Shown here one piece after another: positions 19,919 to 36,281 of a stretch of DNA of 64,000 nt. The DNA comes from Planctomycetota bacterium (GTDB lineage Bacteria; Planctomycetota; Phycisphaerae; Phycisphaerales; UBA1924), in contig RFGH01000171.1 of the NCBI GenBank assembly GCA_003696675.1, positions 1 through 64,000 of the forward strand, written 5' to 3'. The first letter of the stretch is position 1. Each line of letters starts with the position of its first letter. The position numbers were made by a program, and so were the translations under genes. Below the pieces are notes generated by a model. It searched no databases. It saw nothing but the letters and a program-made list of their open reading frames with translations, and was not told the DNA's origin.

Positions 19919-20358
19919 ATTCCCCGTCGGGGCTCGTGGTTCGTCAGACGCTCGCGGGAAGTCGACAGTACCGTCCGAAACCCCTGCGATAAGGTGGGTG
20001 CCCTCGGCCCGGGTCCCGGTCTTCCGCTCGTCGGCGGCCTGACCATCGCCCGGATCTATCCTCGGGCTCCCTCAGGGTGATCAAAGGGTTCAAACGAACC
20101 CTGCCGACCGCCCGCGAGCGCCTGACCTCCACAACCTACCGCGCCTTCCATCGACCGGCTCCTGAAATCGCGTTCACTTTGTGTGAGTTCTTCCCGCCCC
20201 GGTCCGAAAGCCCGACGCAACCACCCCGTCCGGGCGGGCGTATCGACTCCCACGCCCCCCCGACGCGACGAGGACGCTTCGGGCGGCTATGCTGCCCCGC
20301 ACACCGCCCCCAGGCCCGCCACGGAGCCTCAGGGCCCACCAAACGACACACGAGGTTC

Positions 20359-27846: not shown

Positions 27847-28236
27847 GTGTCGACGCGACCCGGCAGCACGGATCAGGCGCGGGCGGCCGCTCTCGAGCGG
27901 CTGCGGGGCTATCGCGTGCGTGCGGACCGGGGGCGTGGCGTCGGACCGGAGATCGAGGCGTTTGTCCGATCGCTGAAGAGGATCAGCGCGCAGGCGTCCC
28001 GGGCGTCGGAGGCGTGGGAGACGGCCGCGCCTGACGGGGTTCGGGCCACGACGAGCGTGGTGGATCTCAAGGGGGGCACGCTGATCGTTCGTGTTCGTTC
28101 GGCGGCCGACCGTCACCGGGCGGATCGCTGGGTGCGGGGCGGCGGGCTAGGCGAGCTGCGTGCGTTGGCGCGGGCGCCGATCACGCAGGTGCGGTTCGAG
28201 CTGGACGGGTCAGCGGGGACAAACCGGCCGCGATGA
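27847..28236 (+). CDS. DUF721/DciA-like protein
   Basis: W..AAP.GV...T.VVDLKGGTLIVRVRSAADRHRADRWVRG...ITQVRFEL resembles the DUF721 layout. Confidence 0.55.
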   Translation: MSTRPGSTDQARAAALERLRGYRVRADRGRGVGPEIEAFVRSLKRISAQASRASEAWETAAPDGVRATTSVVDLKGGTLIVRVRSAADRHRADRWVRGGGLGELRALARAPITQVRFELDGSAGTNRPR

Positions 28237-28345
28237 CGGCCATATGTGGCCAGATTCGACCCTTTTTTGGGGGTAGAGGCTTGGGTTGCACCCGCCGGAA
28301 AATTTTCCCTTTGACACGGGCTTCAAAATCGGCGATGCTGCCGCC

Positions 28346-28535
28346 GCCGGCGTCGTGGTCGGCGACAACCTTGGGGTCCGCCGAGGAATCGGTCGCCCGA
28401 TGCCGCCTTCGGGCGGTGCGGAGCAGTGAACGATTCCGAGGTTTCGCGTGTGGGGGTTGCCGGCCGTCCTCCTGGGCCGGTATCCAGAGCACGCAATGAG
28501 CGGCGTCTTCTCGTGGGAGACGCCGCTCTTCTTTT
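28346..28535 (+). ncRNA. Candidate structured small RNA with sigma70-like promoter and intrinsic terminator
   Basis: TTGACA(28311)-17 nt-GATGCT; nested stems CAACC/GGTTG, GGAATCG/CGATTCC, CCGCC-UUCG-GGCGG; CCGGCC/GGCCGG hairpin; terminator GAGCGGCGTCT...AGACGCCGCTC-TTCTTTT. Confidence 0.45.
28498..28534 (+). terminator. Rho-independent terminator
   Basis: GAGCGGCGTCT-loop-AGACGCCGCTC then TTCTTTT. Confidence 0.8.
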
Positions 28536-28841: not shown

Positions 28842-29513
28842 ATGAAGATGGGACTGATGATTCTGGTGGCGGCTGCCGGCTCGAGCGTTGCGATGGGCGA
28901 CACGGTCGACGCGAGGTATGTCGGCATCGCCGGCGGCAGCGGGGCCAGCCACCTGCGTGTGGGCAGCACGACCTTCTACGCCGGTCACATGGTGCACGAG
29001 TTCACCTCGGGCGACCGTGAAGGCGAGCGTTTCAGCACCTTCTGCATCGATCTGGGCGAATACGCCAACTCCTCCGGCGCGACCTATCAGATCGTTGATC
29101 TGGCCGACGCCCCCGCCCCCGGCGTGCCCTACGGCCAGGCGGTGGCCGATCAGATCAACGCGGTGGTCGCCAACGCGGTGGCCCAAGGCTGGATCGACAA
29201 CCGTCTGCAGGCCGACACGAATCAGGTCGGGTATCTCGCGAAGATGGGCGCGATTCAGGCGGCGATCTGGGAGGCCCTCGGCGGTGATGTGAAGATCAAC
29301 TCCAGCCGCACGAGCGACAGCCTTGCGTACTACTACTTCCAGCTGATGGGGCAGTCGTTCGACGACAGCCTGCGGGTGAACGGGCTGCGTGCGATGGTGG
29401 CGCCCGGGCAGCAGGACATGCTGTATGTGGTGCCGCTGCCCCCGGCCGCGTTTGCCGGGATGGGCCTTCTCGCGGGTCTCGGCGGGGTGCGGGTTCTCCG
29501 CCGCCGCAAGTGA
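28842..29513 (+). CDS. Secreted VPLPPA-CTERM protein, candidate thioester domain (paralog 1)
   Basis: Signal peptide; TFCIDLGEYA; KMGAIQAAIWEALGG; VVPLPPAAFAGMGLLAGLGGVRVLRRRK. Confidence 0.8.
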   Translation: MKMGLMILVAAAGSSVAMGDTVDARYVGIAGGSGASHLRVGSTTFYAGHMVHEFTSGDREGERFSTFCIDLGEYANSSGATYQIVDLADAPAPGVPYGQAVADQINAVVANAVAQGWIDNRLQADTNQVGYLAKMGAIQAAIWEALGGDVKINSSRTSDSLAYYYFQLMGQSFDDSLRVNGLRAMVAPGQQDMLYVVPLPPAAFAGMGLLAGLGGVRVLRRRK

Positions 29514-29827: not shown

Positions 29828-30499
29828 ATGAAGATGAGCATCGGAGTGTGCGGGTTGGCGCTGTGCGCTGGTCTTGCCATGGCAGACTCGATCGACCTCA
29901 ACTACCAGGGCGTAGCCGGTGGTGACGGGTCGACCACCCTGCGGATCAACGGGACGAACTTCAAGGCCGGGCACATGGTTCACGAGGTGCTCAGCGGCCC
30001 GAACGCCGGATCGCAGTACAACACTTTCTGCATCGAGATCGGCGAGTTCGCGACGACGGGTGCGGCGACCTATTCGCTGGTGAATCTGGCTGACGCGCCG
30101 GCGCCAGGTGCGCCGTACGGTCAGTCGGTGGCCGACGCGGTGAGCGCCGTGGTCGCCAACGCGATCGCCAAGGGCTGGATCGATTCGCGTCTGCAGGCCG
30201 ATTCGGGACAGGTCGGTTACCTCGGCAAAATGGGCGCGATCCAGGCTGCGATCTGGGAGGCGCTGGGTGAGGATGTCAACATCAACTCGTCGCAGACCAG
30301 CGATGAGCTGGCGTATTACTACTACCAGCTGATGAACGGCTTCGACTCGAGCGCTCGGGCGAACGGTCTGGTCGCGGCGGTGGCCGAGGGGCGTCAGGAC
30401 ATGCTGTATGTGGTGCCGCTGCCCCCGGCGGCGTTCGCGGGCGCGGGGCTGCTGTTGATCGGTGCCGGCGTTCGCGCGTACCGTCGTCGCCACGCCTGA
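29828..30499 (+). CDS. Secreted VPLPPA-CTERM protein, candidate thioester domain (paralog 2)
   Basis: Signal peptide; TFCIEIGEFA; KMGAIQAAIWEALGE; VVPLPPAAFAGAGLLLIGAGVRAYRRRHA. Confidence 0.8.
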   Translation: MKMSIGVCGLALCAGLAMADSIDLNYQGVAGGDGSTTLRINGTNFKAGHMVHEVLSGPNAGSQYNTFCIEIGEFATTGAATYSLVNLADAPAPGAPYGQSVADAVSAVVANAIAKGWIDSRLQADSGQVGYLGKMGAIQAAIWEALGEDVNINSSQTSDELAYYYYQLMNGFDSSARANGLVAAVAEGRQDMLYVVPLPPAAFAGAGLLLIGAGVRAYRRRHA

Positions 30500-30754: not shown

Positions 30755-31432
30755 ATGATGATGAGGCAGGCATTGGCCGCGGCGGCTCTGGCGTGGCTGG
30801 CCGGGACGGCGATGGGCGGCACGATCGACGCGCGGTATGTGGGCGTGGCCGGCGGCACTTCGGCGACGCATTTGCGTGTGGGCGGCACGACCTACTACGC
30901 CGGGCACATGGTGCATGAGTTCACGGGCGGCGCGCGCAGCGGCGAGCGTTTCTCGACATTCTGCATCGATATCGGCGAGTACGCCAGCACCTCGGGCGCG
31001 ACCTACGAGATCCTGAGCCTGGCGGACGCGCCGAATCCCGGCGTGCCCTACGGCCAGACCGTGGCCGACCGCATCAACGCGGTGGTGGCCAATGCGGTGG
31101 CGCTGGGCTGGATCGACAACCGACTGCAGGCGGATACCGACCAGACGGACTATCTGGCCAAGATGGGCGCCATCCAGGCGGCGATCTGGGAGGCGATCGG
31201 CGGCGATGTGCAGCTCGGCTCGAGCGCCACGACGGCATCGCTGAGCAGTTATTACAACACGCTGATGAACGACGCGACATTCGACGACGGGCTGCGGATC
31301 TCCGGGCTGCGTGCGATGGTGGCGCCCGGTCAGCAGGACATGCTGTATGTGGTGCCGCTGCCCCCGGCCGCCTTCGCGGGCGCGGGCCTGCTGGCGGTCG
31401 GCTTCGGCGTGCGTTCGCTGCGTCGGCGTTGA
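30755..31432 (+). CDS. Secreted VPLPPA-CTERM protein, candidate thioester domain (paralog 3)
   Basis: Signal peptide; TFCIDIGEYA; KMGAIQAAIWEAIGG; VVPLPPAAFAGAGLLAVGFGVRSLRRR. Confidence 0.8.
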   Translation: MMMRQALAAAALAWLAGTAMGGTIDARYVGVAGGTSATHLRVGGTTYYAGHMVHEFTGGARSGERFSTFCIDIGEYASTSGATYEILSLADAPNPGVPYGQTVADRINAVVANAVALGWIDNRLQADTDQTDYLAKMGAIQAAIWEAIGGDVQLGSSATTASLSSYYNTLMNDATFDDGLRISGLRAMVAPGQQDMLYVVPLPPAAFAGAGLLAVGFGVRSLRRR

Positions 31433-36205: not shown

Positions 36206-36248
36206 CAGACTCCTGTGCGTGGCGCCGGTGGCGACCGGCGCGTGCGAG

Positions 36249-36281
36249 CGACCCCGGGTCTCGTGGCCCGGGGTCGTGCTT
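36249..36281 (+). terminator. Rho-independent terminator
   Basis: CGACCCCGGG-tctcgtgg-CCCGGGGTCG then TGCTTTTG. Confidence 0.75.

Follow-up and report, generated by a model that had tools for sequence, protein, structure and literature searches.

A conserved candidate small regulatory RNA gene with an anti-Shine-Dalgarno loop in two genera of a planctomycetal family

Positions 28311–28535 of the window, by which the whole analyzed stretch of 64,000 nucleotides is meant, carry a stand-alone non-coding RNA gene, which is composed of a promoter, an RNA of about 190 nt and a strong terminator. Judged from its sequence, we lean towards the view that this is the gene for a small regulatory RNA that has not been described before. 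Comparison of the homologs showed that the promoter, the four domains of the RNA, a UCCUCCU loop and the terminator have been kept across two genera in a manner that indicates maintenance by selection.

Results

The features of the RNA gene and its surroundings are listed in Table 1. Overall, the RNA consists of four consecutive domains, termed P1 to P4. Folding of the 190-nt RNA yielded −110.8 kcal/mol compared to −85.4 ± 4.1 kcal/mol in dinucleotide shuffles (z −6.2, 0/200). P2 contains an inner, UUCG-capped hairpin (CCGCC-UUCG-GGCGG, 28403–28416), and P3 includes the stem segment CCGGCC (28460)/GGCCGG (28475) and bears the anti-Shine-Dalgarno sequence UCCUCCU at 28467–28473 inside its apical loop GUCCUCCUG. 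The motif UCGUG(G) occurs twice in the RNA, namely in the loop of the 5′ hairpin (28352–28358) and in the terminator loop (28510–28516). Only one other place in the window, at 36248–36277 on the plus strand, was found to have a stem of 12 bp or more with a T-rich tail behind it.

Table 1. Coordinates of the RNA gene, its domains and other features of the window.
Feature	Position	Strand	Description
6S RNA candidate	19946–20122	−	RF00013, 36 bits (below the Rfam gathering score of 46.4), E 4e-4, full model 1–187
dciA, replicative helicase loader	27847–28236	+	PF05258, 25.5 bits, over cut-off; upstream neighbor in most relatives
Promoter	28311–28339	+	−35 TTGACA 28311–28316, 17-nt spacer, −10 GATGCT 28334–28339
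Proposed ncRNA transcript	28346–28535	+	About 190 nt; fold and covariance-model matches; ends inferred from promoter (5′) and terminator (3′)
P1, 5′ hairpin	28346–28363	+	GCCGGC-GUCGUG-GUCGGC, loop 28352–28357
P2, middle domain	28385–28437	+	Closing helix GGAATCG 28385–28391/CGATTCC 28431–28437
P3, long hairpin	28446–28494	+	Apical loop 28466–28474
P4, intrinsic terminator	28498–28535	+	14-bp stem 28498–28528, apex UCGUG, then TTCTTTT
Three thioester-domain (TED) surface-protein paralogs	28842–29513, 29828–30499, 30755–31432	+	PF08341; TED3 over cut-off, TED1 and TED2 below

Homologs of the RNA were identified in all three genomes of its own genus and in 17 of the 21 genomes of a second genus from the same family. 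The two other genomes of the own genus match at 78–79% (E about 1e-44). A covariance model was built from the three genus members and used to search for further homologs, which led to 12 more genomes, all from the second genus (E 1e-6 to 1e-11). Inspection of the sequence directly 3′ of dciA in second-genus genomes that had given no hit revealed four diverged full-length homologs, and a promoter-plus-hairpin pattern yielded one further member of this genus, which is cut by a contig end. The member set thus comprises 15 RNAs of the main type (3 + 12) and four diverged ones, giving 19 full-length members, as well as the contig-end fragment. A further pattern match from the second genus (L077) did not hold up on inspection. 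Outside the two genera, nothing convincing was found among 400 genomes of the order, where pattern searches with the 3′ part or with the promoter and 5′ hairpin gave chance matches only. In other genera of the family and order, the short DNA matches (L004–L012) are devoid of the 3′ hairpins and mostly coding-like and were dismissed as chance, and a search of phages and plasmids for the RNA gave no match. Since dciA is present in 143 of the 163 genomes of the family, the RNA is either a later addition or was lost elsewhere.

An earlier note on this DNA had proposed that a structured ncRNA is encoded here with a promoter and a terminator of its own, a claim that conservation, covariation and out-of-frame indels strongly support; all sequence elements that it named were found where it had placed them. 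Its promoter, TTGACA-17-GATGCT, is omitted by a generic sigma-70 scan because GATGCT is a poor −10 hexamer. We nevertheless accept the promoter, as it is conserved at fixed spacing in all relatives: the same sequence is present in 15/15 relatives of the main type, and the four diverged full-length members have TTGACA-17-GAGTAT/GAACAT. In the alignment of the own genus, the promoter hexamers, the 5′ hairpin, the loop GUCCUCCUG (with one inserted U in G002) and the terminator are identical or near-identical, and the middle changes freely. The two same-genus genomes retain both 3′ hairpins as well as the promoter and the terminator. The conserved 5′ hairpin P1 had been absent from the description in the earlier note.

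The RNAs of the genus are 190, 185 and 192 nt long with indels that are out of frame, which argues for a non-coding RNA; conservation as a protein reading frame had been named in advance as an outcome that would speak against it. A small-protein gene, for which an AUG-ACA-AC after P1 in some members and open frames of 40–120 codons could be adduced, has a negligible probability in our estimation. The AUG is missing in the genus of the window, the frame stops after five codons in G145, and besides the indels it is the paired bases and the loops that are under constraint.

Covariation, which the earlier note had suggested to look for in homologs, was observed as compensatory changes in P2, P3 and P4. 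The closing helix of P2, already recognized there as GGAATCG/CGATTCC, reads GGACCGT/ATGGTCC in G001, whereby 7/7 pairs are kept and four are changed on both sides. P2 is also supported by RNAalifold; the domain is branched and differs in length and sequence between relatives. P3 is 98.2% paired in ten second-genus members with 4/12 pairs changed on both sides, and 0/500 shuffles reached its covariation score. For P4, 100% of cells are paired in 13 members, and both sides have changed in two of the pairs. The pair counts of P3 and P4 were obtained on alignments A7 and A8; in A5, a mixed alignment covering the 3′ part, the diverged members were misplaced.

UCCUCCU is located in the apical loop of P3 in 19/19 full-length members, on stems whose sequences are unrelated between subgroups. 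In the plain minimum-energy fold, the six bases CCUCCU are not all unpaired in most members, because weak pairs of 2–3 bp form inside the loop. When UCCUCCU is held open, P3 forms in all 19, and in a comparison of this open-loop fold with 200 flank shuffles, none was as good in about half of the members and at most 14 were in the rest. P1 follows the pattern GGC-RUCGUG-G in every relative, with R being A in G002 only, and UCGUG is kept in the loops of both P1 and P4 in 19/19 full-length members despite the diverging stem of P4. A conserved terminator loop is unusual, as such loops usually drift freely. Both observations would suit a sponge or scaffold RNA, in which one protein binds the twin UCGUG loops and the C-rich loop offers a second site for binding instead of serving as a seed for base pairing. 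There is no candidate for such a protein, however, and the anti-Shine-Dalgarno match of the third loop would be left unexplained, so that we regard this reading as possible but rather unlikely.

The earlier note had also pointed to a resemblance to 6S RNA, based on length and on a stem-bubble-stem layout with CAACC/GGTTG as outer helix. The length is indeed similar and the layout looked alike at the outset, but RF00013 found no match in 28311–28535 at gathering or permissive thresholds. Moreover, a large central bubble between a closing and an apical stem, all of them conserved, which characterizes 6S RNA, is not seen here: the outer helix is disrupted in each of the two same-genus relatives, GGTTG is part of the next hairpin, and since this helix is not conserved, the stem-bubble-stem reading fails. 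A separate 6S RNA candidate was identified 8 kb away on the opposite strand (Table 1), which shares 85% identity with the 6S match of G002. It contains GGGAGCCC...GGGCACCCACCU. Several relatives likewise have 6S matches as a separate gene 2–9 kb from the dciA/RNA locus. That the RNA is 6S RNA, or a second, diverged copy of it that binds RNA polymerase, therefore has next to no probability, and the length class is all that the two have in common. The Rfam covariance models, proposed as a check, returned no family that matches the RNA at its gathering threshold.

The usual gene order consists of an ABC-transporter gene on the minus strand followed by dciA and the RNA on the plus strand, whereas the gene downstream of the RNA varies. 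In the genus of the window this is the TED array, and in the second genus it is one of various genes, e.g., a PAP2-superfamily gene in G156. Lying between dciA and the TED genes in the window genus, the RNA might be a 3′ UTR of dciA, or it might act in cis on the TED genes as a leader or riboswitch. It has a conserved promoter and an intrinsic terminator of its own, however, stays in place where the downstream gene changes across relatives, and is located away from dciA in G155 and G162, which makes these readings very unlikely. In the latter two genomes (L032 and L037) the RNA is found directly upstream of a TED gene, and its other flank is a gene that, judged by eye, resembles a signal peptidase gene; either the RNA moved or the dciA neighborhood was rearranged. 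There are two distinct genomic sites at which the RNA adjoins a TED gene. The TED paralogs of the window end in VPLPPA, a hydrophobic stretch and RRR, possibly a surface-sorting tail. G002 has at least five TED genes in the place of the window's three. The genomes in which close TED homologs (E below 1e-50) were found coincide with the 15 that have the main RNA type, and the genomes of the four diverged full-length RNAs are without one. In the majority of second-genus genomes, the RNA and TED are not neighbors.

Discussion

The features described above suggest that the RNA probably acts in trans and switches off the translation of chosen mRNAs by covering their Shine-Dalgarno sequences. In the proposed mechanism, the UCCUCCU loop of P3 would imitate the anti-Shine-Dalgarno sequence of 16S rRNA and pair with GGAGGA-like ribosome-binding sites of target mRNAs, whereby ribosome entry would be blocked. 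P1 and P4, each with a UCGUG loop, could be binding sites for a partner or protect the ends, and P2 could be a lineage-specific spacer or platform. Taken as a whole, a small RNA that blocks translation by anti-Shine-Dalgarno pairing is the explanation that we favor, with somewhat more confidence than doubt. Such pairing does not explain why P1 and the terminator loop are so strongly conserved; the repeated UCGUG loops may bind a protein.

The likeliest targets would be the mRNAs of the adjacent TED surface proteins, which is only a lead. The strongest Shine-Dalgarno duplexes with UCCUCCU computed in the window are those of TED2 (−11.5 kcal/mol) and TED1 (−10.7 kcal/mol), compared to −10.3 kcal/mol for the best of the other window genes (42 genes called, with crudely chosen starts) and only −6.9 kcal/mol for TED3. 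In most of the second genus, the ribosome-binding sites of TED genes show ordinary Shine-Dalgarno pairing only, and a CCUCC loop would suit any gene with a Shine-Dalgarno sequence, which speaks against the favored explanation. Likewise, the co-occurrence of TED genes and the RNA is only a lead, because the genomes of the diverged RNAs lack a close TED homolog and the overlap may reflect common descent.

The RNA would act without Hfq. PF17209 was not found in its own genome, which is 92% complete, and the same search found Hfq in 5 of 14 control genomes; membership in the Hfq-dependent trans-acting sRNAs is thus not indicated. A more specific version of the proposed action, in which a lineage-specific anti-Shine-Dalgarno RNA controls the TED surface proteins free of Hfq and together with a new partner that recognizes the paired UCGUG end loops, appears improbable to us at present.

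The closest parallels to the RNA are found in Alphaproteobacteria. In NfeR1 and other alpha-r14 sRNAs, the ultraconserved motif CCUCCUCCC is unpaired in hairpins with divergent stems and silences targets by occluding the ribosome-binding site (PMC10746234). The alpha-r14/NfeR1 and the cuckoo/CcsR-type sRNAs resemble the window RNA in an unpaired, C-rich anti-Shine-Dalgarno loop on unrelated stems, which in the case of the window RNA holds for 19/19 full-length members. An intrinsic terminator is a further common trait, and occlusion of the ribosome-binding site, as proposed for the window RNA, would be another. In contrast to the three loops with CCUCCUCCC in alpha-r14, the window RNA has one anti-Shine-Dalgarno loop, UCCUCCU, and its P1 and P4 loops carry UCGUG. 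It also differs from the alpha-r14 and cuckoo types by the extra domains P1 and P2, by its occurrence in another phylum and by having no Rfam match at threshold. The RNA would thus work like the alpha-r14 and cuckoo RNAs although it is not a member of them. Weak matches to Xoo2 (RF02241, 24.5 bits vs. a gathering score of 45) and anti-hemB (RF02837, 27.1 bits vs. 49.5) cover the P3–P4 part in both the window RNA and L032 and agree with nothing more than a common layout of hairpin plus terminator.

In the literature searched, we found no report of a base-pairing small RNA from Planctomycetota. The RNA represents a genuine new family of a known kind, for which an anti-Shine-Dalgarno action is plausible but unproven. 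This conserved family offers a promoter, a structure, a seed loop, a terminator and an adjacent candidate target. If the proposed action is true, a lineage without detected Hfq would have independently evolved the anti-Shine-Dalgarno mechanism that is known from Alphaproteobacteria.
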